From NCBI GenBank assembly GCA_032358255.1, contig JAULBX010028371.1, positions 1 through 29,930 on the forward strand: DNA of 29,930 nucleotides, read 5' to 3'. How positions within the stretch are numbered: position 1 is the first letter of the stretch; each line of letters opens with the position of its first letter. Under the pieces are notes generated by a model. The model saw only the letters and a list, made by a program, of their open reading frames with translations. It was not told the DNA's origin and did no database searches. This document shows positions 1 to 29,930 of this stretch, in pieces. A program made the translations under genes and the position numbers. The DNA comes from Heterotrichella gracilis. Lineage: Eukaryota; Sar; Xanthophyceae; Tribonematales; Xanthonemataceae.

Positions 1-3000
1 CCGTGTCCATCGCCAAGGCCGGCATCACCACCACCCTCAACCCGCGCACCACAGTGCTGGCGGCAGCAAACCCCGCCTGGGGACGCTACGACCCGCGCAA
101 GAGCCCCGCGGAAAACATCGCTCTCCCCGCAGCGCTGCTCTCCCGTTTCGACCTCATGTGGCTCATCCTGGATAAGGCAGACCCGGAAAACGTGCGCGCA
201 AACCCTGACCAAACCCTAATTGATTTTGATTACAAGCCAAAACCCTAAGGTCTGTACTGCTGTCTTGCATTGACCTCATGTGGCTCATCCTGGATAAGGC
301 GGACCCCGAAAACGTGTGCGCAAACCCTACCCGCCAAAACCCTAGGCTTGACCCTAGAAACCCTAGAATTGCTTTGACCTCACGTGGCTCATCCTATACA
401 AGGCGGACCCGGAAAACGTGCGAGCAAACCCTGCCGAAACCCTAAACTTGACCCTAGATAACCTGGAATTCCTAGTCTTGCTTTGTCCCCACGCTCGTTA
501 GTTACTTACTCTCCATGTGGCTCACCCTATACAAGGCAGCCAGCAGCAAGCGTTGGAGCGACGTCCGGCAAAACCCATTTGCTACACATCCGCAGCATCC
601 CCCTGCCCACCCCGCTAACCCCCACCTCCCACCCTCCACGCTAATCCCCCCCCCCCGTCCCCTCCGCCCCGCAGGACCGCGCCCTGGCCATGCACGTGCT
701 CCAGGTGCACCGCACAGGCAAGCCCCCACCCTCCCAGGCCGCGCTGGACGTGGTGGACCCCAAAACCCTAAGGGCTTACGTGGGCATGGCCAAGCAGCAC
801 ACGCCCTCGGTGCCGCCATCGCTAGCAGGTGCGCTTTGGTGTATAGAAAGAATACAAGGCGAGGGGTAAAGTAATCATGCTAGGGCGCGGGGAGAGTATA
901 CCCAGAGCTGGCCAAGCACCACCATCACCAGCAGCCCTAAACAGTCCCTAAATAGTATTTAGACCCAAACCAGTGTGGGGTGTAGCTAGCCGACCATTAC
1001 CACAGCAGGTTGTGCTCTAAACCTGGAACCCAAAACCCTTGTATTCTCTTGGTTCCTACTGACTTCATGGTGTGCATTCTCCACCCGGTGCGGAATCCAG
1101 CTCGGCAACATACAAGCAGGGTGGTTTTGAACACACCGACTCTTCATTGCGCCCCTTTTCCCTTCCCATCCCCCCTCTTCCCACCTCAATCCCCACATTA
1201 TATCCCTGGGGTTTTCGTTAGCACTCTGTTGTTCTATTCTGTTATATCTTCGTCCCACTCCCCCCGGGAGCCTTGGCTCTAGGACTGGGGTGAGGCATAC
1301 CCAGACATGCTAACCTGGCTTCAAAGCTGGAAAGCAAATACTTACTTACTTACTTACACTCCCCCGACCCCCCACCCGCAGCCTACGTGGCCTCTGTGTA
1401 TGCCGAGGAGGCGCAGAGCACCAGGGCATGCAGTAGGAACAGCACCATTATCTGTCCCCCATCAAATCCCCTCTGCGCAGAATCACCCCCAACCCCCTTT
1501 CTCCCCTCTCCTCTCCCACACCCACCCCGCGTGACATCCTCCACTAACCCAATTCCCCCCCACCCCCCACCCCCAACCCGCAGACTACGTGGCATCAGTG
1601 TATGCTGAGCTGCGCCAGGAGGAGGGCCCGAAACACCATTTCACGCAATAGAAATACTACACATATCTGCCCCCCATCAAACCCCTCTCTGCTCATAACC
1701 AAACCTCCATCTTTCTGCCCTCTCCAATTACCTCACCAGTTTGACATCACCCTAGCCCCATATCCTCCACTGACCTAACTGCCCCCCACACCCTCACCTG
1801 CAGACTACGTGGCCTCGATATATGCCGAGCTGCGCCAGGAGGAGGCCCAGAGCACTATGCCCCACAGCTACACCACCGCACGCACACTCATGTCAATCCT
1901 CAGGCTGGCGCAGGCCCTGGCGAGACTCCGCTTCGCACCCGAGGTGGCCCAGGTAAGGCACAAATCTAGTCCCTAAACCCTAGTTTGTAAACCCTAGAGC
2001 CAAAACCCTAGCCCCTAGCCCCCAAGCAGTTTGCACCCACGGTGTGCCAGGTGGGACAACAACCCTAAACCCTCGACCCTAGACCCTACGCCCTAGACCA
2101 TACACAATGGTGTGCCTTAATAATGGCAGCATACCCCTGATCCGCCCTGAAGTCTAATCGATTGCCATGCGCCAAGGACCTTGAACCCTTGCATGGCCCT
2201 GCGGCCACAATACCCTCTGAATTCCCCCCCACCCCCTCACACCCCACACACGGACGTTGACAGGGCCCTCCGCCTGATGACGATGTCCAAGATGAGCCTG
2301 GTGGACCAGGTGCAGCTGGAACACACCGAACCACGCACATGAAACCACAAAAACCCTAACACCCCATGCAGCCACAGGCCGACAACACCCTGCGCCTCAT
2401 GATCCCTTCTGACCCACCCCCTAAACCCCACCCCCCACCCCCCACAGGGTGAGGTGGACGAGGCCCTCCGCCTCATGAAAATGTCCAAGATCAGCCTGGT
2501 GGACGAGGTGCAGCTGGAGCGCAGTGTAGACCCCGTCACCCTGGTGCGTCAGTGGATCGAAAAGGATAGCAACGACAAGCGGAAGCTGGTGTACTCGTGG
2601 GGCGAGCTGGAGCAGCTGTTCAGACCCGCACCCCCACACATCACGGTGAGCTTAGGGTTTAGGGTTTAGGGTTTATTTGGGTTTGTGGGTTTGAGGGTAA
2701 AGGGCCAATCGGTTTGGTGTATTGGTGGACCGCAAGGATAGGGAGAGCAAACAGGAGGAGGTGTACTCGTGGGCGCACCTGGTGGCGCTGTCCACCACCG
2801 CACATCAAAGTGAGCGGGGTTTAGAATTCAACTTCACCAAGTAGGGTTTACAACTTTTCTTTAAGTTGTAGGGAAGGGTTTTGGCCTTTATCGTTCTCCC
2901 GCAGGGCTGAGTCCCGCCCTGTGGGAATTTTACCTGGCCAACAGCCATGCAGCAGGGGTTCCTCCCCTGGTGCGCTGCCTGGCAGCGCACCCCTTGTGCC

Positions 3001-3586
3001 GTGCAACCCACCCACCACTGCAGGGCACACGCACTGCCTGGCGCACACCCTAAACCTTAAAACCCTAATTCCCTACAGCACTGCCTGGCGCAAGCCCTAA
3101 ACCCTAAACCTGAAACCTAAAACACTGCGTGGCGCACACGCTAAACCCTTCTCCCCTGACCCTCGTCTGCCCCCTGTGCATATACCCAGTACCTTACAAT
3201 TGTCCCAAGGCTCCACGCCTGACGGGCAGCGTAGAATCCCGTTGTATATTATTTTACTTGGTTGGTATTTTCTTCTAGAAGGCAATTTTACCTGGTTTTT
3301 ATCCCTTCCGCCCCTGGTTATCCTGACGAGTGCTCCCCCCCCTGCGCCCCCTGCAGGATGACATCGTGAAAGACTGCCTGGCCCACACCCTCAACCTTAT
3401 GCCCTGAACCCTAACGCACTGCCTGGCGCACACCTTAACAACCCTCCCTCCCCTGCGCCCCTGCAGCACGACGTCATTAGGAAATGCCTGACCACGTACG
3501 ACGAGATCCTTGAGTGGAAGGTGGAGGGAGATATTGAGGGCACGCCGACGCTCACAATTCAACTGGATTCGCTTGCGCAGCGGTAG
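1..3586 (+). CDS. MCM7: MCM7, DNA replication licensing helicase subunit, C-terminal part (5' end outside window)
   Basis: Subunit of the MCM2-7 ring that unwinds DNA at nuclear replication origins. Exons read as 1-191, 675-828, 1804-1952, 2448-2645 and 3467-3586; all junctions keep frame (phases 0,1,0,0) and use GT-AG. Exon 1 has the sensor-1 segment [12 protein letters not shown] and the arginine-finger motif LLSRFD. Exon 2 continues [11 protein letters not shown]. Exon 3 carries [25 protein letters not shown] sensor-2 sequence (motif around 1870-1930). Exon 4 has [11 protein letters not shown], and exons 4-5 form the short C-terminal winged-helix region, ending SLAQR-stop. The match to MCM7 rather than other MCMs rests on the order of these segments and the short tail. 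The first two donors are the unusual GTGCGC. Every intron except the second contains truncated copies of neighbouring exons or telomere-like heptamers, and the second holds copies of exon 3. The N-terminal half and Walker motifs lie upstream of the window. Confidence 0.93.
271..545 (+). repeat. Three decayed tandem copies of the end of MCM7 exon 1
   Basis: The exon-1 end encoding [14 protein letters not shown] plus its donor (149-200) recurs at 271-325, 375-430 and, more weakly, 511-540. The second and third units end at a donor-like GTGTGC or GTGCGA and run into AAACCCT-type heptamers, as the true exon does. Spacing is about 105-135 bp. The copies lack a proper acceptor, so they are probably intronic relics rather than alternative exons. 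Confidence 0.85.
1379..1803 (+). repeat. Two tandem copies of intron 2 end plus the start of MCM7 exon 3
   Basis: The sequence encoding [13 protein letters not shown] at the true exon 3 (1804 on) is preceded by two similar starts at 1382 and 1584, each with its own CAG acceptor after a C-rich tract. Both copies lose similarity within 50-70 bp. The following intron stretch is also shared (ATCTGYCCCCCATCAAAYCCCTCT near 1450 and 1664), so the unit is about 200-220 bp and includes intron. No matching donor is seen in the copies. Confidence 0.85.
2250..2410 (+). repeat. Two truncated copies of the start of MCM7 exon 4
   Basis: The true exon start at 2448 ([22 protein letters not shown]) is echoed at 2255-2325 ([22 protein letters not shown] in the same frame) and again, shorter, at about 2374-2405 (ADNTLRLM). 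Between the two copies lies AAAAACCCTAACACCCC, a telomere-like tract. The first copy keeps about 70 bp of clear similarity. Confidence 0.85.
2650..2680 (+). repeat. Interstitial TTTAGGG array directly after MCM7 exon 4 donor
   Basis: The donor GTGAGC at 2646 is followed at once by about three tandem TTTAGGG heptamers. Similar short arrays lie at 4166-4180, 4250-4272, 4324-4349 and 4438-4452. They are too short to be a chromosome end. Confidence 0.9.
2700..3460 (+). repeat. MCM7 last intron: copy of exon 4 end and array of exon-5-start fragments
   Basis: At 2728-2811 a copy of the exon 4 end survives (VYSW-HLVAL, then a GTGAGC-like donor). Near 3032, 3079, 3123, 3372 and 3417 the string CACTGCCTGGCGCACACC or a near match recurs, usually followed by CTAAACC or TCAACCT. 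The fullest unit (3355-3400) reads [11 protein letters not shown], paralogous to the true exon start [11 protein letters not shown] at 3467. The array is thus a set of exon-5-start fragments, each capped by telomere-like sequence. Confidence 0.75.
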
Positions 3587-4850
3587 GCGCTGGGGCGGGG
3601 GGAGTGCATGTGGGTGGCGTGGCAACATGGGGTGCTGCGGGATGTGGGCGCGCAGCAATATTGGTGTGCTGGGGCGGGTATGCGTGGGTCTGCATGGCAC
3701 TTCTTGGAGGAGAGGTGGAGGAGGACATGCAGGGCAGGCCGCTGCTCCAGCTGCTGGATGTGGGCGCGCAGCAATAAGCAAGGGGTGTACAAGCAAACTT
3801 CATGTATGCAGCTGTACTTTATGCCCCTTGCCGTAGGCGCGCTGGTGCGGGGGTGGCACAGGGGTAGCCATGTGGCGGCGGTTGTGTGTGCATGGCGATG
3901 TCCTGGAGGAGGGCTGCAGGGTGGAGGGGGACGTGCAGGGCATGCCGCTGATCATGTTGCTGAAGCAATAGGCGCCCTCAGCAGCAATTGGCGCGGCGCT
4001 GGGGCGGGGGGAGAATAAGGGGAGGCGCCTGCAGTGACTGTGTTGCTGCTGTGTGGGGTTTTGTGGCGCAGCAGTCGGCCTACATGGGGTCCCGGCGCAG
4101 GCGCTGGATGTTAGGGCAAAATAATGGGGGAAAGAATTGTTCCCAACGGTGTATTTCTGGGTGTAGGGTTTAGGGTTTGGGCGGCAGGAGTTGTTGTCGA
4201 GGTGCTGGCAGGGGGGCCACCCATGTGCAGTGCTGTGTGCACTGCTGGCTTTAGGGTTTTGGGTTTAGGGTCAGGGAAGGGGTGCAGCCCACCTACTGCC
4301 AGCGACAGGCTGCTGCCCTCGTCTTTAGGGTTTAGGGTTTAGGGTTTGCAGTGCCTGTCCAAGGAGGTGCAGACTGGTCAGCATTTCCTTCTTTCTCTTC
4401 CTTAAGAGCGATGCGCCGCTGGGGGGGTTGGGGGCTGTTTAGGGTTTAGGGTGAAGGCTGCGGTTGTCAGGAAGCCTCATAGCATGTTGGTGCTGACCAA
4501 GGGTGCCAGGGGCTGGGTGTGGCGAGCAAGAGGGGCATCTGGTGGGGGGCAAGCTGGAGACCGATATATATATGCATCATAACCCGTTCGTATGCGTACC
4601 CTACGGCATGGTCAAGGGTTGTTAAACCCGCAAACTTTGCGTTTTTCTTAGACTAAGCAGCGGCTTGCTGGAGGATAATATGTCTCAGAGCTGCACTGCC
4701 AATGCAAAAAAATGAGCGACTGCTATTATTTCGCTTTTTTTGTTGACACTCTCCGCCGGCTAGTAAGGGGCCCAGGTGTGCACACTCAAGCAGCTGTGCG
4801 CTGACCGTTGATGGCACAACGCATGTCATATCTGACATGCTTAACTCACA
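3587..4850 (+). other. MCM7 3' flank with two decayed copies of the last exon
   Basis: No gene is recognised here. Copies of the end of exon 5 survive at about 3700-3777 (EVEEDMQGRPLLQLL) and 3897-3971 (VEGDVQGMPLIMLL); both end near CAATA(A/G)GC, matching the true TAGGCGC at the stop. Several TTTAGGG arrays follow. No TGTAA signal on this strand is seen soon after the stop, so the MCM7 transcript end is not placed. Confidence 0.6.
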
Positions 4851-4900
4851 TTTTCAGGCAACTCATGCGTGTCGTTTTTCACAGAGTCAGACGTATCATA

Positions 4901-4968
4901 TTACAGTAACGACAGTTGCAGCTTTGACATTGCAGTCACTGTGCCACATGACAACAGTTACTGTTACA
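4901..4968 (-). terminator. Candidate polyadenylation signals for the minus-strand membrane gene
   Basis: TTACA on the plus strand (TGTAA on the minus strand) occurs at 4901-4905 and 4964-4968, about 310-375 bp beyond the stop of the gene ending at 5277. TGTAA is the usual green-algal signal. The two sites sit in a small inverted repeat (TTACAGTAAC against GTTACTGTTACA). Support is positional only. Confidence 0.3.
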
Positions 4969-5089
4969 AGCAAGCCTTGATAGAATTGCCGATCGGATTT
5001 TAAACATTGCTTGTCAAACCAAAGCACCCAACCCAACCCAACTCCAGCTCAATCTGCCCCAAACTGCGCCTGCGCCGCCCTGAGGGAGG

Positions 5090-5200
5090 CTCCCCTGCCC
5101 CGCCCCACTTTGGGTGGGGCTGGAGGCCTCGCTGGCGCTCCACGCTGCCGACAACGTGGCTGAGTCCATTGACGGTGTGCAGCCAACCCTGTCTAGGGTC
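5090..5200 (-). repeat. Decayed copy of the C-terminal coding end of the membrane gene
   Basis: Positions about 5093-5175 repeat about 5312-5385: a GCCCACTTYGKGTGGGGCTGG core, then GCGCTCCAYGCTGCCGACA and TGAGTCCATTGACG. On the minus strand both encode a Ser/Ala-rich segment (MDS-LSAAWSAS--SSPT). The copy lies beyond the stop codon at 5277-5279. It is another partial duplication of a gene end. Confidence 0.75.
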
Positions 5201-5276
5201 CACCTGCTCCCTATGAAAAATGCCATCTGTTGAAAACCACGCACACCGTTGACCTCCATGATGTATCCTAACCACC

Positions 5277-6541
5277 TCAGTTTGCTCGAAGCTGCGCATG
5301 TGCCACCCTCCCCTGCCCACTTCGTGTGGGGCTGGAAGGCGCGCTGGCGCTCCATGCTGCCGACAGGCTGACTGAGTCCATTGACGCTGTGCGGCTGAGC
5401 GAGTGCCCCTGCAGCACGCTCTGGCTCTCCTCCACCTCTGCCTGCATGAACTCCGAGTGCAGGTGGTACAGCATGGATACCAGGGACAGCAACATGGGGC
5501 CCATAATGGCACCTGCGCATAGCCACAGCAATCCCTGTATAAGCAACACCGTGATCAAGGGGAAATGCAAGTACAGTGCATAGTGTTTAGTGTATATGCT
5601 CAGCACAGCTCTGTTAACGATGAGGAAAGTAGCGGACGGGAAGCAGCCTATGATTTCATGTTTATGTTTATCTTCCAGATTATTGGGCGTGTACCACGTA
5701 CAAGAGATATAATTACCTTCCAGTAGGTTGTTGAAGGTGTATATCCCCCCAATGATCCCCAGGCCTGTGAAGTAGGGGTGTGAGCCAGGCACCTCCCGCA
5801 TGATGACGTCATCCGCAACCGAGATTGGCATCACGAGCAGCGCCAGCAGGGCTGCAGCGCCCACCCACCTGTCCTGTACATGTGGGAAGGCGGTCTGCAT
5901 TCATGACTGCGTCCTTTTTGTGCAACAGCAATGTTGGTTGTGTTGTGGTTGGGATGTGACTGTGACTGTACGTGGTTGTGATTGGGAAATGGAAGTGGAA
6001 ATGGAAATGGAAATGGAAATGGAAATGGAAATGGAAATGGAAATGGAAATGGAATTGAGAATGGAAATGGAAATAGATTGGGATTGGATCTGGAATCAGA
6101 ATCAGCGTCGTGTACATGAATGCGCACCTGGAAGACGAGGTGGGCGGCGCCTGGGATGGCCACCACCCACACGGGGATGAGCTGCAGAAAGCAGCACCGA
6201 CGTGTACACAAACGCGATGCTGAGGCAGCTGAAGGTGAGCCAAGTGGACAACCCATGGAACGCAGCCAGCTTGCTTTGGTCGTATACTTCACGGACGCAG
6301 CCAGCTTGATACTGCACACAATCACCCCGCGGGCAGCCCTGTTGATCGCGGTGCATGCCCGGGTGCGGGCCTGCTCTGTCAAGGGCAGCAGCAGGAGGGA
6401 TGACGCGATGGGGTCCTGCTTCGATGACAGGAGAGGAGGAGGGTGCAGCAGAAGAGCACAAAATGTGTGGCCAGCTAAACGGCGCCTGCACGTGACCACG
6501 AAATGTGAATCAACAGCAATCATTTTCAAAGTTTGGGGCAA
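5277..6541 (-). CDS. Predicted multipass membrane protein, unrecognised family
   Basis: I do not recognise the family. The best model has exon B at 5873-5277 and exon A from about 6541 to 6128, joined in phase 0 (HLVFQ then DRWVGAAALL) across a 254-bp intron with a GTGCGC donor and TGTACAG acceptor. Exon B gives about 198 residues with hydrophobic stretches WVGAAALLALLVMPISVA, HPYFTGLGIIGGIYTFNNLL and PLITVLLIQGLLWLCAGA, continuing into MGPMLLSLVSMLYHL, then an acidic piece (FMQAEVEES) and a Ser-rich tail. Exon A ends in LIPVWVVAIPGAAHLVF. In exon A the most membrane-like reading (HGLSTWLTFSCLSIAFVYTSV) lies in a different frame from both flanks. The start codon and upstream exons are uncertain. 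Exon B is the reliable part. Confidence 0.5.
5985..6074 (+). repeat. GGAAAT hexanucleotide microsatellite in the membrane-gene intron
   Basis: About a dozen GGAAAT units with few interruptions, inside the inferred 5874-6127 intron. Read on the gene strand it is a pyrimidine-rich ATTTCC tract upstream of the acceptor. The Phe-Pro or Met-Glu strings from translating it are artefacts. Confidence 0.9.
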
Positions 6542-6960
6542 TTAGAGTGAACAAATGTCTGTGCTATTTCCTGCCTTATCAGATATGATGCATATTTACA
6601 AGCAAAATCTTGCGCAGCCATATCTTAATTCTGCCAATTTTGAAAATTAAAACGAGATTGCAAAATCAGACAACAAAAATTTCCGTTCACACGTTCGTAC
6701 CAAGACTGACGCGCACTAGTCCACCCATGAAAGCTGCTGCACCCGTGCTGCCCAGCGATGATGCGGCTACCTGCAACACACGTTTACCTGCACAAAGGTC
6801 CCCAATTAACTGCACAGCCAGCCACAGCTGCACAGCCGAGCAACCCCCCAATTTTTTTTTGTGTGTGTGTGGAATGCAATATGACAGGCCATATGAGGTT
6901 GCCAGTGAAGCGCTGCAAACAAACCCACCCAGTTCAAGGTAGCTGACGTCCAATTCTTAC

Positions 6961-7147
6961 CCAGAGCAAGCAGTGGCTGGGCTGCAGACAGGAACATGTT
7001 CCCTAAGCTGGCCTTCCGGGACTTGGGATTGGCTTGACACCCTCCTGATGCTGGTTGTCACTTTGCCAACAAGCAGCTGCATTTCCTCCCAGCCATCGCG
7101 TACTTGCATCTTCCCAAACCTTGTTGCAATTGCTTGCAACTGACGAC
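6961..7147 (-). CDS. Candidate internal exon, unidentified gene
   Basis: A 187-bp open segment bounded by a pyrimidine-rich acceptor (CACATACTCCAG on the minus strand) and a GTAAGA donor. It encodes a helical, charged segment beginning RQLQAIATRFGKMQV and continuing DGWEEMQLLVGKV. The flanking exons could not be joined with confidence. The region 6600-6960 on this strand holds open stretches (for example VAASSLGSTGAAAFMGG) that could be the next exon. It could also be chance. Confidence 0.3.
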
Positions 7148-7505
7148 CTGGAGTATGTGGTGGTGATGGATTGGAACAGTACATCAAGCAAATCATGCAG
7201 ATCAAGGTGGGAAATGCTTTGCAGAGGAGAGGGAACAAAAGTAGATTTTCAAGCAGGTTTTCAAGATATATCTTTCATTTGTTGCAGTGACTACTACAGT
7301 ATTATATTTCCAGAATGCACTGGCAGTCACTGAGGCCTGTGTCCTGCAAACACCCCAATGACTGCCACACACCACAATTTGCTTGTCAGAGAGGCTGAAT
7401 GAGGTTTTAATAAACCTGTTTTGAAAGCGAAGTGCATCACTGTGACATGTCTTATCATTTATCGGTTGCAATTGCTCTCTGCCAAGCAAGGCGCAACATT
7501 TGCAG

Positions 7506-7553
7506 GTTGAAAACACGTATGTGATGAAGAACCAGTACCCATCGTGCAGCGAT
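7506..7553 (+). CDS. Candidate 16-codon internal exon, unidentified gene
   Basis: Bounded by ATTTGCAG and GTGAGT, it encodes VENTYVMKNQYPSCSD in phase 0. A possible upstream partner ends at 7206 before GTGGGA with LEQYIKQIMQIK, also phase 0. Family not recognised. This competes with the opposite-strand candidate at 6961-7147, though the two do not overlap. A downstream partner might be the proline-rich segment ending at 8497. Confidence 0.25.
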
Positions 7554-7818
7554 GTGAGTACCCCTAAGTGGGATGCATCTGCTCCCGTCCATGAGCGAAC
7601 GTACACACGCGTGTACTGTAGTGGTGCGGTGCAAGTTTGCAAGCATCGTTTAACCTAGTCTAAAGACCTTGACCGCGTCTCGATCAGCAGTCACTCTCAT
7701 TACTACTGCAGCAGTGTCTGCCTGGCTCAGCACTATTGGGTTGCCAGGTTTTGACCATGTTGAAACAGAACCCTAGGCTAGGGTTAAGGATGATTGCAGA
7801 CCATACATGTGTACTCCA

Positions 7819-7962
7819 TGATTCAGTCACTGCAAATGTTGTCAGCCCAGCCTGACGTAAGTATACAGGCGCCTAAGCCGCGCTGCTTAGCAAATGCACG
7901 GCCTGCGCTTGCAGCAACACTCACGTCAGACTGGGTTGACAACAATTGCAGTGGCTGTATCA
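7819..7962. repeat. 43-bp imperfect inverted repeat (long hairpin)
   Basis: Arms at 7819-7861 and 7920-7962 are complementary at 37 of 43 positions, with a 58-base loop. The loop has its own short complement (CTAAGC with GCTTAG). Several of the six mismatches would be G-U pairs in RNA. It could be the precursor of a small RNA or a remnant of a small foldback element. No target-site duplication was recognised. Confidence 0.8.
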
Positions 7963-8080
7963 TACAGTCACTATATGCGCCAGTTGAAGCCACCTGCGCA
8001 CTGCAGTTCCTATGAAGCCAGGCTGGAATTGAACAATCCAATTCAAGTTGCTACATTGAACAATCGAGTATTTGACTGCG

Positions 8081-8132
8081 ACATTCTATTGCTACATTCT
8101 GCTGCTACATCCTACTGCCACGTTCTATTGCA
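8081..8132 (+). repeat. Four tandem copies of a 13-bp unit
   Basis: Units resembling ACATTCTATTGCT follow one another at 8081, 8094, 8107 and 8120, with one to three differences each. No function is suggested. Confidence 0.8.
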
Positions 8133-8161
8133 GCAAGGCCACGTCCCCGCTGGCTTGGCAG

Positions 8162-8497: not shown

Positions 8498-8709
8498 ATA
8501 TCTGTGCCGCGGGAGAGGAGGGTGATGGCGGCGGCTGTGATGGCGGAGGCGCCTGGGCCGGATGGGGAGGGTGTGTGCCGGGGGGCATGGGACAGAGCGG
8601 CTGTGGTGGGTGCTTCTGGGTTGGTGGTCCTGTGGGTGGTGAAGGTGGTTGTATAATTAACCTTGTATGTTTATTGTTCATGTTTTGATTCAGAGTGAAA
8701 TAAACATTA

Positions 8710-8791: not shown

Positions 8792-8842
8792 CCTCACCTG
8801 TGGTGTGAGGTGGTGATGGCAGGTTTGGGTGGTGAAATGTGT

Positions 8843-8890
8843 AAGGTCCCATGTGTGCAAGGTTCCATGTGTGTAAGGTTCCATGTGTGC
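8843..8890 (+). repeat. Three tandem copies of a 16-bp unit
   Basis: AAGGTTCCATGTGTGC-type units at 8843, 8859 and 8875 differ at one or two bases. Confidence 0.9.
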
Positions 8891-8943
8891 CTAGTGAGGT
8901 GTGCCACCATGCGCTGCTTCACGCCGGGCCAACCCTAAACCCT

Positions 8944-9105: not shown

Positions 9106-10574
9106 CTAAGATTTGCTGCCTAGAAGCGTATCAATTCGGCATGCAGAACTCCCAACGTGCAGCCATACCAGTGCCGTCAAGCCCTCTGGATCGCTCTCCC
9201 CGTCTGCCGCCACTACCCCCTCCGGATGGAAAACTGCCACCCCAGCCACCAGCACGTTGCTGGCTACACCCAGCAAGGGCTCAAGGTAGTGGTACGCAAG
9301 GTTTGCCTCGGCAGCACGGCAAAGGCAGGTGGCTATCTGCCACAGAACGCCGGGGGCCAGGGGCCCCTCTTCTAGTAGGTCTGGTTGCCAGTCCCCCTGC
9401 GGAAGCAAGTCACCGCTGTGCTTCAGTTGGTGAGAAGGAAGGTGCAAGTTTCAGTCTGCTTGAAGGGTTGGAATAATAAAGGTAAAAAAACTATCAGCCA
9501 CTGGTAATGCTTGCCTGCACCAGGATCCCCTCACAATAAGGCCATGGCTTCCAAAACCCTGAACCCTAAACCCTAAACAGGGCGCTACGCTTACCTGCAC
9601 CAGGGTCCCCTCACCCTTGGCTTCCAAGACCATGCGGTACACAGTGGCGCGTTCAACACCCCAATAGCCCTCCCTCTTAGTGGGGTTCTTCACAGCGCAA
9701 GCGACGAAATCGCAAGGGCATTTCCTCAGAAAGCAAGACTTATGCCGCAGGTTCCAGCTGTTGGTGCTGCGGCCGCTTTCCGCTGGATCTGTCGCTGTCA
9801 CCTCTGCCTCGTCGCCTTTCACTCTCTGCGCAGTACTCAACTCCTGTTGCAGGTCCGTGCCCAGTTTGGGTGTTCCTCTTGCACTGACCAGGGTTTGACC
9901 ACCTGCCCGCACCACACGCAAGCTCGATTAGTCACCACAACCATCTTTTGTGAGGTATAAAGAATGCATGGCAGTTTACAGCTGCTGTTTATACTGGGGC
10001 AGTATGGAACAAAAGCGTGAATATGCATGCATGCACCGAGTTTTTTGCATGCATGCGTGTTCAGATGGTCAGGTATTGCCACCACCAATCACGAGAGGTG
10101 TGCATGAGTTACACATGGCAAGTACAAGCGAAAACCTTACATGCCAAAGCTATACGTCAAGTTGTACGTACCGAGAGTGTGCACAGTATCTCCTCAGGAA
10201 CCTGTTCCCCGTTGACCGAGCCCGCCCACGTCATAACCAGCCTCAGCAGCGCCGCCGGCGGGGGCCTTGACGGTTTTCCACCCCCTATGCACGTGTCAGG
10301 CAGGACCTGTGCGCCAGTACTTGAACAGCTCCGGTGCAATATGCGTTGCAGTAAACGCAAAGAGCACGTCGTACAGGAACTCGTTGCCCTCGCCGCATCG
10401 AAAGAAGTCAGCGTCATCGTTGGGTGGTTTGTACTTTGTCAAGTCGGGCACGAGCCTCACAAACGGATGACTCAAACGGAACGTGTCACGGGACTGGTTG
10501 GAAGGGTCCGTGTTCATCAAAGCAGCCACCTGAGGCCCTGTGCACTGCCTCTTCGCAGGACGACTCCCCTCCAT
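9106..10574 (-). CDS. Unrecognised conserved-looking protein, multi-exon
   Basis: I do not recognise the family. The last two exons are well defined. One ends at 9595 (…EGTLVQ, donor GTAAGC) and opens somewhere up to 9920. The next is 9396-9106 after TTCCGCAG, phase 0, starting GDWQPDLLEEGPLAPGVLW and ending TLLGSKS. The penultimate exon has a Cys-containing segment (CFLRKCPCDFVACAVKNP) and YWGVERATVYRMVLEAKGEG. A probable first exon starts at the ATG at 10574-10572 (MEGSRPAKRQCTGPQ, a small basic patch) and includes RLVPDLTKYKPPNDDADFF and FAFTATHIAPELFKYW. A further exon may end at 10172 before GTACGT (NGEQVPEEILCTLS). How the 5' exons join is unresolved. The intron 9397-9594 carries a copy of the preceding exon end. 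Confidence 0.5.
9509..9640 (-). repeat. Exon-end copy joined to CCCTAAA repeats
   Basis: The exon end at 9589-9631 (donor, then GTGCAG and the CTTGGCTTCC segment in plus-strand sense) is repeated at 9509-9552, with a GCAAGC sequence replacing the GTAAGC donor. The two are separated by a CCCTGAACCCTAAACCCTAAA tract (9557-9578). The copy has the same architecture as those in MCM7, EFG1 and CCT. Confidence 0.85.
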
Positions 10575-11000: not shown

Positions 11001-12560
11001 ATAGGTCCATGGATCCCTGTGCACATACCCATAATCTCACAAAGCGCCCCTGCTCCTCACCTCCCCTATTCCAATCTCCAAGCCCGACGGGCAGCGTAGC
11101 ATCCCACTGCACATCCTGGCACATCTAGGATTCCGTTGTAATACAAGACTGCAAGAATACAATATAGCTTTATTATTGCTTTCCCCACAACTCCTGCTTG
11201 GTTGATGACATGCAGTGTTGATATCCGAGTTATTTTCGATTATTTTTATTCCCCCTCTTTGGACTCCTCCCCCCCCTTATTACCCTGACGATTCCCTCCT
11301 TAATAATCATGAATGTCGTGCTGCACCCCCCCCCTCCCTGCGCCCCTGCTGCACAATATTATTATGAGGACTGCCTCACTCCCTATGCGCAGAGCAACAT
11401 GTGTAATTTATAGCCCTTGGCATAGACCCGCTGGTGCGTGGATGGTGCAGGGGTAACCAGTATCATGTGGGGGCAGGGTTGTGTGCGCATGGCGAAAAAA
11501 TCTATAAATGGCGATTTAAATATGATGGAGGGGAGCTGCAGGGCTGAAGAGGACACCCAGGGCTTGCCGCTGCTCAAGCTGCCGGACCATCACAATGTGG
11601 GTGCCACTTACTGCGCAGCAATAGGCGCGGCACTTGGGCCCGCTGGGCGCCGAGCGGGGGCCGTGCAGAGCGTGCCCATGTGGTGGGTGCAGCACTGCTG
11701 GATCAGGGCGCAAAGGGGAGGCGCGGCGCTGGAGCAGGGGTGCGTGGGTGTGCAAAGGGCGCTGGATGTTGGGAAGGAGGTTGGCGGTGCAGGAGGTTGG
11801 GGGTGCAGGTGTTGACTCACAACGGTTGTGGGAGGGAAGTGGTGGGCTGGGTGTTGGCTGCACAGGGTGCCCCAGCACCGGGAGGCACAGGTGGAGGTGC
11901 TGGCAGGGGTGTTGTGGGTTTAGGGTTTAGGGCTTGGCAACGCTGCACCAAACGGGTGTAGGCTAAAAATAAAAATAAAAATAAAAACAGAAATGCATTC
12001 CAACCTGGCATCGGCTACATTGGGTGTATTGGTGCTGTGCGTGATGTAGCTGTGGGATGCAGCAGCAGGTGCGTGGAAAGGTGCTGGCAAGCAATTGGCA
12101 GAGACGAGGCTCGTTACATGTTACAGTGTACTTTTGGATTAAATTTAGGGGTTGGGGTATTTTCCCCTTCTCAATAGGGGCATCGGGGGCTGGAGCAGTA
12201 AGGAGCAGGGGTTGGTTGCTGATTCAAGGTGCCAAAGGGAATAACGGTGGGTGGAACTGGCAACTGCTGGGCTGCTGCTGCAAGCTGGAGACTGATGAGT
12301 GCATCACAACCGGTAGTGTGCATAGTAGTGCAAACCCTACAACAACGAGGCCGTATGTGTACTGTCAAATAGCAAGTTGCCTACTGGTTTGCTGTAGGAT
12401 GCTAGTCCACAACCATGCAGTGCAAAGGACTGTGGCAGCCCTTGGCTATTAGTTTCCGTTTTGATGTTGGCACTGTCCCCCGGGTTGCATAATATGCCGC
12501 CCAGGTGTCCAACCACAGGCAATTGTGCGCTTACAGCTGATTGCAAGTGCTCAGTCACCC
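11000..12560 (+). pseudogene. Diverged duplicate of the MCM7 3' end and flank
   Basis: Blocks occur in the same order as at 3170-4800. GACGGGCAGCGTAG at 11086 matches 3221. TTAT-GCCCTTG, then CGCTGGTGCG, then CAGGGGTA, at 11408-11455 matches 3819-3870. The degenerate last exon with GAGGACACCCAGGGC and the CAATAGGCGCGG end at 11525-11632 matches 3897-3985. GGTGCTGGCAGGGG at about 11896 matches 4200. CAAGCTGGAGACYGAT followed by GCATCA at 12281-12306 matches 4550-4580. The GCCCAGGTGT region near 12500 matches 4770. It contains only the last intron, last exon and downstream sequence, with stops and indels. It cannot encode helicase and is taken as a pseudogene fragment. Confidence 0.75.
11966..11988 (+). 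repeat. AAAAAT-type simple repeat
   Basis: Three to four tandem TAAAAA units, inside the degenerate MCM7-like segment. Confidence 0.85.
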
Positions 12561-12722
12561 TAGACTAGGACTGAAACCTGGTCTTGGTGCTGCTTTGTGA
12601 CAAAAAACACAACCCAAGTGGCAAAGACAACGTGGGTATTTGGTATGACTGGGCACATGTATTCACTTGTACCAGTAGTGTGAGCTGTGCTTGCTTCAGT
12701 GTGTTGAAACGGTGTTTTAAAC

Positions 12723-12792
12723 TGGCAGTGGCCCATGCGGCTTGCACAAGGCAGGTAAATTGGCAGTGGCCCATGCGGCTTGCACAAGGCAG
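12723..12792 (+). repeat. Perfect 32-bp direct repeat with 6-bp spacer
   Basis: 12723-12754 and 12761-12792 are identical, separated by GTAAAT. The first copy ends CAG|GTAAAT, which resembles an exon end plus donor. Identity of the copies indicates a recent event or conversion. No gene was assigned here; 12560-13010 otherwise shows nothing firm. Confidence 0.9.
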
Positions 12793-13010
12793 GGGGCCAC
12801 TGAGCACTCCACTGCTGCCACTAGCCCACTTGCCCCATGGTTGAGGGATCACCACAGCTAAAGCCATGGCTAGGGCTGCAAGGGAGGCGGAGCAGCTGGG
12901 TAGGGAGAGAGTGCTGCTGTGAGTGGTCCAATAGGCCCACCCAGCAACGTGTTGCAACCCCCAACCCCCATACTGGGTATATCCAGGTAACTTTGCCCTT
13001 GCCTCAACAG

Positions 13011-24000: not shown

Positions 24001-26365
24001 GCTAGGGTTTTGCTGAGCTGGTAAGGGTTTTCCTGGCTGCTCTTCCTCCCCCTCGCTGTGGTCTGATCCCGACATGAAGAGGTCATCCTCATCGAACTTA
24101 CCATCACCAGAGGCCTCATCCTGCGGAACGATTGAACGTTTGTTGGTTGTTGGTTGTTGGTTGTTGCGAGCTATTGTGGCCGTGGGGGAAGGCTTGGACA
24201 CACCCTAAACCCTAAACCCTAAACCACTAATATCCATTGGTCCAGTTGCTGTGCGCTCCTGATGTTGCTGTGCGCTCCTGATGTTACACCCACCGCTCCC
24301 AAAGCAACCCCACTAGACAGCAGTGGTGCCGAGGTGCACACAGCAGCTGCATACCCGACCTGCGGCACGCGCACAGCAACACTGCATGAAAAGTACAGCG
24401 TTTCTGCGGCAAATGCTTGCAGCCACATGCAGCTGCTGCTGCTTATGCTGCTTATGCTGCATGTAATCCCCCAAAGGCCCCACTCCCCACTCCAAACACC
24501 CATCCCCCACCTCCCCACCCCACACCTCCTCCCTGGCGCGCCCCGCCAGCTTGCCCCCCACCCCCTCATCCGCATGTGCCACCAGCGCCAGGTCAAACAG
24601 CTCCACCCGCACCAGCTACCATGCAAGCAGGCCACCACACAACCCCCCACACCCCGGTGCACCGCCAAGTGCATGAACATTGCGAATCCCCCAAACAAGT
24701 TCCCTACACTCACCTCCTCCCTGGCGTGCCCCGCCCTCTTGGCCCCCACCCCCACCCCCTCATCCGCATCCGCCACCAGCGCCAGGTCCGACAGCCCCAC
24801 CCGCACCAGCCCCCTCAGCCGCGCCACGTCAGCCTGCCACCGCGCACGGTCAGCGGCGTCTTCGGGGGCCCGCAGGATGGATACATACTTTTCCCCCTTG
24901 GGGAAGTGGAGCACGTACTGCAGGGGAGGGCGGGACATGTGTCAGCAGGCACAGGGCATTAAACGGGGTGTGCAAGCTGTGCAAGGGTTGCCGCTTCTGC
25001 AGTAGCTGGTTTTCGCAACTGTTTTTGTGCCCACATATGTGTCAATATTATGTCTTCCCAATTGACGTGTTTCCGGCCTTCCCGACTTACCTGCACGACC
25101 TCCACAGCTGTGCCTGGTGCAGCCGCTGCTCCTCCTGCCCTTAGGGTCAATATAGGGTTTTGCCCTAGGGTTTGTCTAGGGGTTTGCTAGGGTTTTTGCC
25201 CCACCTGCAGGTCCTCCTGTGCCTGGTGCAGCCGCTGCTCCTCCTCCGCTGCCAGGGCCCCCTCCACTGCCTGGCGAGCCACCAGCTGCTTGATGGTGCG
25301 CTCCACCTTCACACGCTCAAAGAAGCGCACCTGCACAAATGCAAAACGTACTATTCACATACCGGCAATAATACATTTTTGGGAGTAAAATTTTGTCCGT
25401 ATGATATTGCCATATATATTGCACATTTTGGCCTGAAGGAGCTCTCCACTTGGCATGCTAAGAGAAGGGCAGGTACTTCCACATGCGTATTTCCCTACTG
25501 TACTGAAAAAGGAAAGCTATTTTACAACCTGTTTAATGGAGCGCTCCACAATCGCATGCGAGAAGAAATACCTGCGCGGCGCAAGGCATTGCGGGCTGAC
25601 TGCTAATCTGCTGTCTGCTAAGTGCTGGCGCCATTGCAGCAAACTGGACATGGCCGCAGGGACATGCACACCCCTCCCTACTCGGTTTTCTTGAGCCCAC
25701 AAAACCCTACCTTGCGCTTGTGCACAGCGTACTTGTAGGACTGCTTCGCCCCCTCTCCGGCCCCCCACGCCTCCTCCCGGGCCCCCCACACCCCGTTGCC
25801 CACCTAGGTTGCCCGCAAAACCCTCCCTGCGGTACCAAAACCCTACCTTGTGGTAGCGCACAGCATACTTTCGCTCCCGCTCTGCCCTGACCTGCACCGC
25901 CAGTGCCTCCTTCAGGCTTGCAAGCTCCACCTCCTTCTTGTGGCGCGCGCCCTTCTCGACACCCTCCTGTAGGGTCGGGGAAAAGGCTCACGAAGGGGAC
26001 CATATGGTCAGCAACAAGTGGGGTGGATGGGGTCTGAACAGGTGACTGTTAACGTGGGTCACCGGATCATGCGGCTATGTTGAGAAACTTCAGGAGCATG
26101 TATGCAGCAGAGCGTATTCCCGGATGTGCACAGGACGAGATAAGAACGAATACTGAGTATCCGGTGCATGCATGCATATGGCACCCAGCCGCCCACCCAC
26201 CCAATTCAGCAGCCGCTCGATTGAGCGGATCTGATTCTTGAGGGACGGTTTCTTGGCGGGTTTGCTCTTCCCCGGGGCTCCAGCGCGGCCCTTTTGGACC
26301 CCTCCCTGACTTCGAAAGCCTTTCTCCTTGCCCCCCTTGAAACGCTGCCCAGGTGGCTTGCCCAT
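21052..26365 (-). CDS. EFG1: EFG1-type rRNA-processing protein with long acidic and RGG-rich extension, seven exons, 745 aa
   Basis: EFG1 is a nucleolar protein needed for 18S pre-rRNA processing in yeast. Exons are 26365-26201, 25966-25847, 25330-25205, 24917-24714, 24120-22987, 21946-21716 and 21309-21052; every junction is phase 0. The start is ATG 26365-26363. The EFG1 domain spans about residues 38-160: KKPSLKNQIRSIERLL, EVELASLKEALAVQ, KYAVRYHK, RFFERVKVERTIKQL and the hallmark YVLHFPKGEKYVSIL. Exon 5 (378 aa) is disordered, beginning acidic (DEASGDGKFDEDDLF), then Gln/Lys/Pro repeats such as QKPLQKPLPQLAPSGK, then Asp/Ser-rich. Exons 6-7 are RGG-rich, ending in a KRAEGGRKRRKKA basic tail that suits nucleolar targeting. 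Yeast EFG1 is only about 230 residues, so the extension is exceptional. The joining of exons 5-7 rests on splice signals and phase only. Introns 2, 3 and 4 hold partial exon copies. Confidence 0.85.
21947..22986 (-). other. Large EFG1 intron between exons 5 and 6
   Basis: This 1.04-kb intron contains CCCTAAAACC and TTTAGGG repeats facing each other at about 22100-22138, then a CATCATGATGGGTGTCATGATG repeat. TAGGGTTTAGGG starts immediately inside the donor (GTGAGTAGGG on the minus strand, 22970-22986). No gene was recognised within it. Confidence 0.6.
23600..24030 (-). repeat. Degenerate coding repeats in EFG1 exon 5
   Basis: The minus strand encodes repeated QKPLQKPL, LAPSGKP or PAPSSKP, and QQAA-KQQ blocks. 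The plus strand therefore shows many AAGGGTTTCTGCAAGGG-like repeats. It is low-complexity coding sequence that probably varies in length between strains. Confidence 0.8.
24203..24224 (+). repeat. Interstitial CCCTAAA array
   Basis: Three tandem CCCTAAA heptamers in the EFG1 intron 4 (24121-24713), near the acceptor of exon 5. Confidence 0.9.
24525..24625 (-). repeat. Copy of the EFG1 exon 4 end
   Basis: About 100 bp in intron 4 mirror the exon 4 end (24714-24815). On the minus strand it reads LVRVELFDLALVAHADEGVG and then GRAREE before GTGTGG, against LVRVGLSDLALVADADEGVG and HAREE before GTGAGT in the true exon. The copy is largely in frame. Confidence 0.9.
25092..25200 (-). repeat. Copy of the EFG1 exon 3 end plus TTTAGGG-like filler
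   Basis: 25092-25140 repeats the exon 3 end (25205-25245), sharing GTGCCTGGTGCAGCCGCTGC. On the minus strand the copy ends GTGCAG|GTAAGT, a better donor than the GTGGGG of the true exon. Degenerate telomere-like repeats (AGGGTTTTGCCCTAGGGTTT and similar) fill 25142-25197. A CCCTAAG just before the copy on the minus strand could act as an acceptor, so the copy could be a cryptic exon. Confidence 0.85.
25700..25860 (-). repeat. Copy of the EFG1 exon 2 end with telomere-like donor
   Basis: The true exon end encodes KYAVRYHK and is followed on the minus strand by GTAGGGTTTTGG. The copy at about 25709-25745 encodes KYAVHKRK followed by GTAGGGTTTTGT. In both, the donor itself is the telomere-like GTAGGGTTT. 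Confidence 0.85.
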
Positions 26366-26902
26366 CGTGCGCACTGCCCAGCCAGCGTCTACCCTCACAC
26401 GCCCCGCATTGCACCTGGAAGATGCTAGAGGCGAGATTGTGGAGGGAGGTTGCTTTTCTCGGGTGGGTGTGCGGCTGGTGTCACCGCTTTTGTGCCGGCG
26501 TGAAAATCCAAGCTATTTTTGGGAAATACCCGAGAATTGAAATTCTGTTTTATTTTTAAATGGCCACCACGTGATTACTCACATGGTTTCAATCGGTCCC
26601 CCACGCAGCCGGCGACAAACACTTTTCAGCTTGCCAGCTTTCTTCCGCAACAACGGTTAACGGTCACATGTAACCAGATCGTGCGTTATCAGTGACATCT
26701 CTGTGCCCGCTTCGTGCAAGCTTCGCCGTGGAGCAGTTGGGTGGCTCTCTGAGACAGTACCTGGAAAACCATCCTAACAGCTTCGGTTTTGTTCAGAGAT
26801 AGCTCCGCTGCAACGTTTTGGCAGCACGTCAACTGCAACACCGCTCAGGCCCTGCACTCCCTTCCCTTTCCTGCACTTTGAGCAAGTGGACGGTTGCCAA
26901 GC
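26366..26902. promoter_or_regulatory. Shared divergent promoter region of EFG1 and CCT
   Basis: 537 bp separate the EFG1 ATG (minus) from the CCT ATG (plus). No coding sequence is supported. The mid part (26500-26580) is comparatively A/T-rich, with GGGAAATACCCGAG and a T-rich run. No specific factor site is claimed. Confidence 0.5.
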
Positions 26903-29797
26903 ATGGTGAAGCGGTCTGCTCGGTCCGCGAGCAAGGGCGTCGGCCCTTCCAGTGCTGCCCCAGCTTCGCCACACTTGAACATGCCACCAGCAGAGGCTGC
27001 ACCAGCCCAACCTGAGCAGCAGGACGTCCCCAGCACCTCTGGGGCCGCAAGCATCACCGACAGGCCTATCCGTGTGTATGCTGACGGTGGGTGGCTTTGA
27101 ACAAAGCCTGTCTGGCTGTTTGAACCGGTGGAGACCCTAAATGGCCATCTGGGTTCACCGTTTTACTCACACGGGCCTGGTTTGGCTCCTGCAGGGATCT
27201 TCGACTTGTTTCACTTTGGGCACGCCAGGGCGTTGGAACAAGCAAAGAAAGTGTAAGTCCCTCTGTGGTTACTGTGCTTAAAGGACGCAAGTGGGGGTTG
27301 AAAGGCTTACTAACCCACCTGTGGATATCACCCCAGGTTTCCCAACACGTACCTGCTAGTGGGCGTGTGCAACGACGAGCTGACCCACAAATACAAGGGC
27401 AAGACGGTGATGACGGAAGAGGACCGCTACGAGTCCCTCAGGCACTGCAAGTAAGCCCTCTTTGCTGGGTGGTTTACCTGCAGTGTAGACTGTCTGACAT
27501 ACAGCACCCATGTGAATTCCCACCAGAGTCAGCTGTGTGCAAGCAGAGTCTGGTCCCAAAGGAATGAAGCTGCCCTTTGCAGCTAGCTCCTATCGATAGC
27601 GCACGTGCCTTGTTACAGAAATCCTAGCTCTCCAGTGGGTAGCCGGCATGTGCCACCATGCCACCATGTGTCTCCTTCCCCTTCCACTCCGCAGTAGCTG
27701 CACCCCTCCCGCATGCATATCACTGCATGGGCCCCCCTTTAGAAGCTGCTTTCCGAAGTTATTGCTGTGCCACTTGCAGGTGGGTGGATGAGGTGGTGCC
27801 AGACGCACCATGGGTGATCACACCAGAGTTCCTGGAGGAGCACAACATCGACTTTGTGGCGCACGATGCCCTGCCATACAGCGATGCCTCGGGCCAGGCG
27901 GATGACGTTTATGAAATTGTACGTACGGCTCAGCAGATGGTGTTATTGCCCACCAAATGCCCTTGTGGCAGTGGCACTGGTGTTGGAGGGGCATGGCATT
28001 GCAAATTCTTTGATACACATATGCTAAGCACACCAAATTATGGTTGCAATTCGCTATCTGCACTACTCCACACCTCCACCGCTCCCAACAGCATCTGGGG
28101 TTCCCGCCTGTCCCCACATGCGTGATAGCAATGCCTGCCACTGGTTTCCTCACCCGCCTCCTGTTAACCTCGCCTGTGGCCGCTTCCCGTTCGCTCTCCC
28201 CTTCTACTATCCAGCTGGATGCGATCCTTAGCAACCCAGCTGGGTTGGGTTGTAAGAACTGCTGTTTTCAGCCAACAAGGGTTGGGGGTGAAGTAAGTAA
28301 AGGGGATGGGATATTGAAGAAGTCTATCTTTCCTCCAGGTGAAGAAGCTTGGCAAGTTCATGGAGACCAAGCGCACCCCTAACCCTATACCCTAAGACAT
28401 AAACCCTAAAACCTTTAACAACAATTGCCTCCCCCTCCAGGTGAAAAAGCTTGGCAAGTTCATGGAGACCAAGCGGACCGATGGCATCTCCACCTCTGAC
28501 ATCATCCTGCGCATAATCCGGGACTACAACGAGTATGTGCTGCGTAACCTATCCCGGGGATACTCGCGCAAGGACCTGGGGGTGTCCCTGCTCAAGGTAT
28601 GCTCAGTAGCCGCTTGCCTGCTTCCAGGAGTACAGTCAAGGCACGAATGGCACTGCAAAAGAGAGCATTGTAGCGAAAAAGAAAATGCAAATTGTATAAC
28701 CATATGAAGCTGTCATCCGGCATATGTACGTGCTGCGCAACCTGTCCCGGGGATACTCGCGCAAGGACCTGGGGGTGTCCCTGCTAAAGGTATCCCCAGC
28801 CGCTGAAAAGGAAATTGTGTGGTATGTGGTGCGGGACCAGTCGTGCTGCTGGCTGCACCGCCATGTTCTGTGGGATTTGGGGTGAAGCTTGGACGGCACA
28901 ATCATTGCATTGCCCTCCTCGCTTAGCATCCACCCTCCACCACGTGCGCACCCCTCCTAATGGCATGCCATCCTACCCATGCTGATATCCTCCCACCCAC
29001 CCACCCACTCACTTCCCCCACCCCCCACCTCCTCCAGGAGCAGCAGATCCGCGCGCGCCACAGCTTGAAACAGCTGAGCCAGCGCATGAAGGAGAACAGG
29101 CTGCGGGTGGCGGAGCGGGTGGCAAAGCACGTGCAGCAAGGGGTGCGGGGCGTGCGCGTCATTCCACAGGTGGGCAGGGGCCACGACGCGAGTATTTGCA
29201 TTGGCATGGAAGTTTTGGGGCATCCCGGGGAGTGCAATGAGTGAGCTGGGACCACATGCAATCGCAGGAAGGGCAGCTGGTGGGGGAGCGGGTGGCCAAG
29301 CGTACAGCTCGTAGAGTGCGCCTCGTACCACTGGGAGTTGCCTGGGAATGCATCAAACTGCGGCCTATTGACTGTTAATTATCGGGGAATTGTCTATGTA
29401 TTATAATGCATACCTCTATTGGTATTGGTAACCTGGTGGGTGTGCACACCGTCACGCCAAGAGGGTGGCGCAATGCTGCATGCTTTGCACGCCTACCCCC
29501 AAGGGCATTAGATGTGGATTAGGCAGCAGGCCATACCCCCGCTTGGCCCCCTTCCACACCCCCCCCGCAGGACCGGCATGAAGGATTGTGCACACACCTA
29601 GGCTGTAGATTGGACCCTTGGCAGTCGTCCCTACCCTAACTAACCCCCATCTTCCCCCGCCCTCCCCCGCAGGACATGGAGACTGGCATGAAGGAGCTTG
29701 CGCACACGGTTGAGTCGCTGTTTGACCGCGTGGTGAGCGGGGAGCTGGGCACCGAGCTGATGGACAACATGGACAAGTTTGTGTCGGGGTTCATACG
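26903..29797 (+). CDS. Choline-phosphate cytidylyltransferase (CCT), 3' end outside window
   Basis: Transfers CMP from CTP to phosphocholine, making CDP-choline for phosphatidylcholine synthesis by the Kennedy pathway at membranes. Exons are 26903-27086, 27195-27252, 27337-27450, 27780-27918, 28441-28596, 29038-29169 and 29673-29797, with consistent phases and GT-AG introns. The N-terminal 55 residues are basic and Pro/Ala-rich. The catalytic domain has [19 protein letters not shown] with the HxGH motif, [45 protein letters not shown] and [15 protein letters not shown] (the RTxGISTS motif). Exon 6 ([19 protein letters not shown]) suits the amphipathic membrane-sensing helix. The reading is open to the donor at 29798, so the gene probably continues. 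Choline rather than ethanolamine use is inferred from the single catalytic domain. Three introns carry partial exon copies. Confidence 0.92.
28339..28440 (+). repeat. Copy of the start of CCT exon 5 followed by CCCTAAA tract
   Basis: 28339-28377 repeats the first 39 bp of exon 5 (28441 on) with two differences, including a TTTCCTCCAG acceptor. It passes directly into CCCCTAACCCTATACCCTAAG and AAACCCTAAAACC. It has a usable acceptor but no donor, so use of this acceptor would disrupt the message. Confidence 0.92.
28722..28796 (+). repeat. Copy of the CCT exon 5 end with donor
   Basis: TACGTGCTGCGCAACCTGTC through CTGCTAAAG|GTATCC repeats the exon end at 28534-28602 with only a few, mostly synonymous, differences ([16 protein letters not shown], then VSLLK). 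It keeps a donor-like GTATCC. No telomere-like tract lies beside this copy. Confidence 0.92.
29268..29615 (+). repeat. Fragments of CCT exons 6 and 7
   Basis: At 29268-29330, after a CGCAG acceptor, the sequence encodes [16 protein letters not shown], resembling [19 protein letters not shown] of exon 6. At 29566-29612 CCGCAGGACCGGCATGAAGGA resembles the start of exon 7 (GACATGGAGACTGGCATGAAGG at 29673) but has lost about 9 bp. Both are truncated. Confidence 0.75.
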
Positions 29798-29930
29798 GTA
29801 CGAATCAGGGGGGACATAGCATAGGGTGGGCAGGGGTGGGTGGGAAGGTGGGCGGGTTCCCTGTGGGTGGTATGTGAAAGGTGAAAAACTTGGTGACTGG
29901 TACTGAGGGGAACAAGACTGTGAAGGAGGC

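Follow-up and report, generated by a model that had tools for sequence, protein, structure and literature searches.

Why should introns carry copies of the edges of their neighbouring exons, and why should telomere-like sequence lie between copy and source? The question is raised by a stretch of 29,930 nucleotides (the window; G000:C585:1-29930, from an assembly of 68.5 Mb in 903 contigs, G+C 0.556), in which an earlier note, made from the sequence alone, had described such copies in introns of the MCM7, EFG1 and CCT genes and of a gene at 9106-10574, most of them joined to CCCTAAA/TTTAGGG-like tracts. The pattern extends beyond the window. At 48 of 107 internal telomeric tracts elsewhere in the assembly the two flanks are direct copies of one another, and a staggered break followed by telomeric addition, fill-in and end joining is the best explanation that we can offer (probability roughly 0.6). 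All results come from one genome, that of a photosynthetic eukaryote (43 exon matches to light-harvesting genes) which we take to be a green alga, and the exon-edge statistics come from the window and from 200 kb of one contig (C2:1-200000, here C2).

The tracts consist of the organism's own telomere unit, as in interstitial telomeric insertions. This unit is of the plant type, and contig C70 begins with a CCCTAAA array that is about 77 bases long. The pattern (TTTAGGG)3 occurs 834 times in the genome (overlapping matches) and never when read backwards; for (TTTAGGG)2 the corresponding numbers are 5,629 (overlapping matches counted apart) and 5. For runs that match (TTTAGGG)n over 8 bases or more, the window has 52 and its five first-order Markov shuffles have 2-7; C2 has 150 and its five shuffles 21-32, the window (52 in 30 kb) being the richer of the two.

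The strongest evidence comes from comparing the flanks of these tracts. We took tracts of at least 21 bases (at least 24 from contig C59 on) in listing order, one entry per tract, from contigs C2 to C105; all are short (21-40 bases exact). The sample excludes the C70 array, which is a true telomere, as well as C46:403873 and C69:51482, two tracts lying close to a contig end or a neighbour. One tract, L001, is also part of the C2 sample. About 200 bp of flank were compared on each side, and a score of at least 32 was counted as a duplication in both of two sets. In the first, 27/67 tracts are bracketed by direct copies and none of 4,420 mispaired flanks reaches the threshold (maximum score 31); in the second, the numbers are 21/40 and 0/1,560 (maximum score 29). 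Target duplication, a flank change of the end-joining type, is thus found at 48/107 tracts and at 0/5,980 mispaired flanks. At five loci (L045, L049, L102, L120 and L126) two copies of 19-42 bp exactly flank a pure tract. An earlier version of this comparison in C2 gave flanking duplications at 11/58 telomeric clusters versus 11/387 random places, and there the duplicated share grows with tract length (9/65, 7/32 and 11/35, against 21/500 random points), with no significant excess at other microsatellites (14/204, p 0.18). Within the window the corresponding shares are 4/17, 3/7 and 4/17 versus 50/500 random points (p 0.09, 0.03 and 0.09), a weaker contrast because duplications are common there.

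The same association is seen when duplications rather than tracts are the starting point. With telomeric words masked, C2 contains 55 local direct duplications; once redundancy is removed, 48 pairs with a spacer of 3-300 bp remain. Telomeric runs amount to 181 bp in these spacers, whereas permutations average 30.0 bp and peak at 135 (0 of 2,000 reach 181); the outer flanks contain 29 bp (left) and 95 bp (right), and the higher value on the right is in keeping with multi-unit arrays. Tested individually against non-coding windows, 16 of 44 spacers are telomere-like at p < 0.05, where 2.2 would be expected. Duplication length is similar in telomeric and other pairs (50 and 52, p 0.34). The 15 non-redundant pairs of the window behave alike, with 113 telomeric bp in spacers against 30.4 (p 0.003) and 16 and 72 bp in the outer flanks; the excess over random placement holds for word lengths of 7 (p 0.0005) and 8 (p 0.003) and is not significant for these 15 pairs at a word length of 10 (p 0.129, permutation). 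The check that the earlier note had proposed, for enrichment of exon fragments and heptamers in introns, was applied to C2 and to the 107 tracts and did not refute the pattern.

Within the window, the edges of 13 introns (26 edges) were audited using hand-made and subsequently checked models of MCM7 (of which part lies in the window), EFG1 and CCT. In the spliced MCM7 model, residues 1-250 of 269 align with human MCM7 (E 1.9e-58) and an MCM domain lies at 3-191, so that the copies fall outside the conserved protein and are predicted by the model to be spliced out; eight MCM loci (L029-L036) were retrieved from the genome. The EFG1 model matches PF10153 (E 4.3e-29) and 5yma (E 1.8e-10), and the CCT model PF01467 (E 1.8e-34). 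An intronic copy of the exon edge (score at least 30) is present at 11/26 edges, and in 10 of the 11 it includes the splice junction, which bears out the original description. Four further edges differ from shuffled introns at p < 0.05 (scores 27, 23, 23 and 28) and were left uncounted. Introns without a counted copy measure 84, 108, 242 and 329 bases (n=4), and those with a copy 288-975 bases (n=9). Compared with itself, the window yields 17 local direct duplications, and three second-order Markov shuffles of it, like a shuffle of 100 kb of contig C2, yield none. The copies are mostly 74-97% alike, which argues against an assembly artefact; a second full copy of 25000-29900, the only stretch tried for a second haplotype, is absent from the assembly. 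The features are as follows.

150-206, + strand: MCM7 exon end and donor (source), with telomeric words before the first copy at 211-219 and 240-248
272-328, + strand: intronic copy of 150-206, junction included (score 99)
about 373-429, + strand: second intronic copy of 150-206
1378-1407, + strand: shorter copy of the start of MCM7 exon 1804-1952
1568-1631, + strand: intronic copy of the start of MCM7 exon 1804-1952, acceptor included; no telomeric run of 7 between
2240-2320, + strand: intronic copy of the start of MCM7 exon 2448-2645 (score 100); telomeric words at 2351-2359 and 2419-2428
2652-2675, + strand: pure TTTAGGG tract directly after the MCM7 donor at 2646
2734-2822, + strand: diverged intronic copy of the end of MCM7 exon 2448-2645, donor included (score 45)
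3033-3455, + strand: degenerate repeats and CCCTAAA-like words upstream of the last MCM7 exon
3341-3383, + strand: copy of the last MCM7 exon's start (score 30, lowest of those counted)
9509-9578, - strand (inferred): in the 9106-10574 gene, copy 9509-9561 of 9589-9634, then telomeric tract 9562-9578
24523-24616, - strand: copy of EFG1 exon end 24711-24810; no telomeric run between
25089-25136, - strand: copy of EFG1 exon end 25203-25245
25141-25195, - strand: telomere-like filler between the two preceding EFG1 sequences (25089-25136 and 25203-25245), with four runs of at least 7
25700-25734, - strand: copy of EFG1 exon end and donor 25836-25870 (score 45); one run of 7 between
28332-28377, + strand: copy of CCT exon start 28434-28479, acceptor included (95.6% identical)
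28381-28410, + strand: telomere-like filler between 28332-28377 and 28434-28479
28726-28799, + strand: copy of CCT exon end and donor 28533-28606; no telomeric run between
29272-29308, + strand: copy of part of CCT exon 29038-29169, without splice junction
29559-29595, + strand: copy of the start of CCT exon 29673-29797, acceptor included (score 35); one run of 7 between

Whether most copies are joined to telomeric sequence depends on the word length. For 13 audited copies, which include that of the 9106-10574 gene and one further EFG1 copy, the stretch from copy to source contains a telomeric run of at least 7 in 9 and of at least 8 in 7, with none in 4; the earlier claim of "most" thus stands for words of 7, and for words of 8 it becomes about half. 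One tract on the earlier list, 25836-25846, is a single word that contains the EFG1 donor itself (coding strand GTAGGGTTTT) and has to be withdrawn, whereas the MCM7 exon-end copy at 2734-2822, behind the pure tract at 2652-2675, was absent from that list.

A preference for exon edges is also seen in C2, where exons were predicted by a home-made gene finder that had the window genes as its training set and whose intron class is rough. A predicted exon-intron boundary falls within a copy at 30/46 duplication loci, against 11.9 expected; the rest are wholly exonic (0; 3.8 expected), wholly non-coding (5; 22.7) or mixed (11; 7.7). For the 12 window loci the counts are 6 at an edge (3.0 expected), 3 exonic (0.8), 2 mixed (2.4) and 1 non-coding (5.8). 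The outer sides of the loci are coding on one side only in 32/46 cases in C2, 8/12 in the window and 12/28 among tract loci (random, 60/400), and on both sides in 3/46, 2/12 and 0/28 (random, 61/400). This is the pattern of duplications spanning existing exon edges. Intron birth by tandem duplication within a single exon was considered and dropped, both-sides-coding loci not being in excess by coding score, the only measure applied. Single rows are not reliable, since that score can choose the wrong strand (at L053, minus and then plus). Protein matches lend independent support: of 47 open frames located at bracketed tracts, 18 were tried against Pfam, and six reached or passed the cut-off (dihydroxy-acid dehydratase, KH, RCC1, CAF1, strumpellin and ankyrin), one matched below it (RSE1/DDB1/CPSF1 propeller), and 11 had no match.

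Telomeric words themselves are also concentrated in introns. In C2 the density of runs of at least 8 is 1.39 per kb for predicted introns, 0.37 for non-exonic DNA elsewhere and 0.23 for exons; in the same order, the densities are 3.26, 2.92 and 2.21 for 15 shuffled heptamers pooled and 1.18, 0.82 and 1.02 for other microsatellites. In C2 introns of 200-1000 bases, the 103 runs are shifted towards exon edges relative to a uniform distribution (mean relative distance 0.39, Kolmogorov-Smirnov p 1.6e-5). The predicted introns of the window are richer than those of C2, with 3.31 runs per kb. No strand bias relative to the gene is found in C2 (60 C-sense, 54 G-sense, p 0.64), and in the window the two orientations number 36 and 12. 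C2 introns with copies have a median length of 379.5 (n=34) versus 300 for those without (n=195), with p 0.056, so that intron growth is unproved at the C2 scale.

The anatomy of the 48 bracketed tract loci is variable in detail. Duplication lengths stay within 18 to 86 bp (median 42.5, interquartile range 31-54) even though some 200 bp of flank had been compared; these are duplications of tens of bases, as described for repair guided by CST, from which we infer the underlying break. The arrangement is copy-tract-copy at 15 loci and copy-tract-copy-tract-copy at 9, with other patterns at the remainder. A copy occupies both array ends in 31/48, and neither outer flank has a telomeric run at 24/48. 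The two copies are identical at five loci (L037, L059, L062, L102 and L129) and 74% identical where they are least alike; the wide variation in similarity noted earlier is thus borne out, and it means that the events differ in age, although no dates can be attached. Outside telomeric words, 56 spacers have nothing in common except one 13-base match. At L118 and L130 the repeated units contain the telomeric tract itself, and those of L118 are near-identical; these units are a minisatellite-like expansion following the first event. The register of tract ends was dropped as a signature of telomerase, the search pattern itself constraining the register of short tracts.

These features can be joined in one scheme. 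A double-strand break would leave overlapping single-stranded ends of roughly 20-85 nt; one end would gain a few TTTAGGG repeats, for which the simplest agent is telomerase working from a free 3' end; fill-in of both overhangs, presumably by CST-Pol alpha, and joining of the ends, presumably by Ku, would then give copy, telomeric tract and copy. Some units might later expand into copy-tract-copy-tract-copy arrays. A 3' overhang would be the natural substrate of both telomerase and CST fill-in, and could thereby unite the two features of these loci; the genome encodes a TERT RNA-binding domain and Ku. Events within exons would be purged by selection, and those across an exon edge may do no harm, as the outer, intact site is still available for splicing; edge copies would also remain recognisable for longer because one copy is under constraint. 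This slower decay may account for part of the exon-edge excess, and the edge pattern, which we attribute largely to what selection tolerates and preserves, need not be the work of a targeted process. Of the routes proposed at the outset, break repair with telomeric addition is the one that best fits the edge and spacer excesses in C2. Replication slippage stabilised by heptamers, the other, leaves unexplained the pure tracts between unrelated copies at many sites.

Several observations weigh against this scheme. Flanking duplication is missing at 59/107 tracts, and at 39 unbracketed tracts of the first set a 6-mer is shared in only 2 (0.3 expected); target duplications of 4-10 bp were thus too few there to be retained as a candidate, the one hit of 10 bp being at L078. 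A tract lies beyond the outermost copy in 17/48 arrays. The G-strand tract abuts the upstream copy at 12/48 loci and the downstream copy at 19/48, where priming by telomerase predicts the upstream. Among telomeric pairs, copy identity and telomeric purity show no significant correlation (rho 0.24, p 0.26), and 20/44 C2 spacers are not telomeric-looking (p > 0.2). Finally, the roughly 4-fold enrichment of telomeric words in introns is not predicted by the scheme. Tolerance alone fails to explain it, since neutral tolerance would leave intergenic DNA about equally rich; transcription-linked breaks, or selection for intronic words resembling plant telo boxes, could lie behind it. A bolder form of the staggered-break reading, in which telomere-type processing (telomerase extension and fill-in) would be a leading repair outcome for internal breaks in this lineage, mainly in transcribed genes near exon edges, and a main engine of intron growth, we regard as doubtful.

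Some of these points are accommodated by other explanations. If telomeric repeats were inserted alone, and the fragile tract later provoked a tandem duplication that took in both itself and the adjoining piece, one would understand the 17 arrays with an outlying tract, the telomeric run in an outer flank at 24/48 loci (against 3.1% of random 49-bp windows) and the near-identical, tract-containing units of L118; the 31 arrays that have a copy at either end are not a direct product of duplicating a copy-plus-tract unit, some loci consist of one exact copy-tract-copy unit, and we think this sequence unlikely. The lack of an upstream-junction preference would be natural if ready-made pieces of telomeric DNA, rather than new telomerase products, had been ligated into staggered breaks; no observation here counts against such capture, short tracts being compatible with either route, and we rate it as improbable. 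Template switching at a broken fork, in which a telomerase-extended 3' end re-anneals upstream and recopies the same stretch, would account for multi-copy arrays and for duplication of whatever adjoins the break, and would be expected to give a broad range of duplication lengths rather than the 18-86 bp seen; it seems to us quite unlikely. Selection that retains telomeric words in introns in the manner of plant telo boxes, with incidental duplications, draws on the intron density in C2, and leaves unexplained the duplicated flanks at 48/107 tracts; moreover, the words show no gene-strand preference in C2, and the telo boxes of Arabidopsis and rice peak in 5' untranslated regions, not introns, according to the part of the study cited (PMC3022908), which makes this explanation very improbable. 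Introners, mobile intron-like elements inserted with flanking repeats, occur mainly in fast-evolving lineages such as green algae according to the sections cited (PMC9860276), and are hardly credible here given the lack of a single sequence family among the 56 spacers, the variable flanking copies of 18-86 bp in place of 3-9 bp (PMC9860276), and the scarcity of loci with coding sequence on both outer sides.

How does this pattern compare with known systems? The earlier note had found no named mechanism combining duplication with telomeric sequence, which does not hold: telomeric insertion with target duplication is recorded at 6/130 rodent and 4/25 primate insertions (PMC2246262 Table 1) and at 3/66 in the horse, where it is attributed to staggered breaks, with two more horse loci combining duplication with other changes (PMC7215372). 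As described in these excerpts, mammalian interstitial telomeric sequences resemble the present loci in being short internal tracts of the telomere unit, some with direct target duplication ascribed to staggered breaks; the intron bias and the arrays are features of the present case. The mammalian shares were scored against empty sites and our 48/107 from flank similarity, so that they compare in orders of magnitude only. Telomeric insertion with target duplication is therefore known and uncommon in mammals, and what looks unusual here is its frequency, the duplication length and the intron bias. Small tandem duplications at 3' overhangs arise by CST-guided Pol alpha-primase fill-in and Ku-dependent joining (PMC8355091); they are overhang-sized, and the tested overhangs of 43 and 49 bp are near the median found here, whereas those experiments concern mammalian cells and Cas9-made breaks and, in the portion of the report used, telomeric filler is unmentioned. 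Plant telo boxes share the plant-type unit and a model of telomerase acting on free 3' ends, and differ, in the accounts cited, in being single units, richest in 5' untranslated regions, for which flanking duplication is no theme; here the runs concentrate in predicted introns. Introners, too, are inserted in many genes and have direct repeats at their edges (PMC9860276, sections cited), whereas here there is no shared element body, the duplications are long and variable, and existing introns are enlarged. In the open-licence literature, surveyed at the level of listings, we recognised no description of telomeric filler between exon-edge duplications in an alga.

Since the scar keeps both copies of the target, the geometry of the break can be read without an outgroup. 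If the staggered-break reading is right, this organism would be one in which telomeric addition at internal breaks could be counted, and the origin of some intron sequence would become directly testable. It would also link telomere maintenance, small tandem duplications and intron lengthening, which are usually studied apart.

The window contains several other repeats. Its end with the last CCT exon (29733-29900) matches G000:C486:37556-37779 (85% along about 125 bases and 100% along 47) and C208:78236-78314 (87%). Either a further copy of an exon edge on the neighbouring contig or the division of one gene between two contigs might explain this. Three stretches, 5985-6074, 8838-8890 and 12718-12793, are ordinary tandem repeats (periods 6, 16 and 38 bases) free of telomeric filler. 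An imperfect inverted repeat of about 150 bases (73.5%) is found at 7818-7963. Finally, diverged direct copies about 7.5-7.9 kb apart relate 3211-4816 to 11076-12545; the second stretch, further along, seems to be an old copy of the region of the MCM7 3' end. The blocks, in the same order, are as follows.

3211-3240, 3718-3758, 3813-3898, 3904-4005 and 4722-4816: first block of the diverged copies
11076-11105, 11546-11586, 11402-11495, 11526-11639 and 12445-12545: second block of the diverged copies

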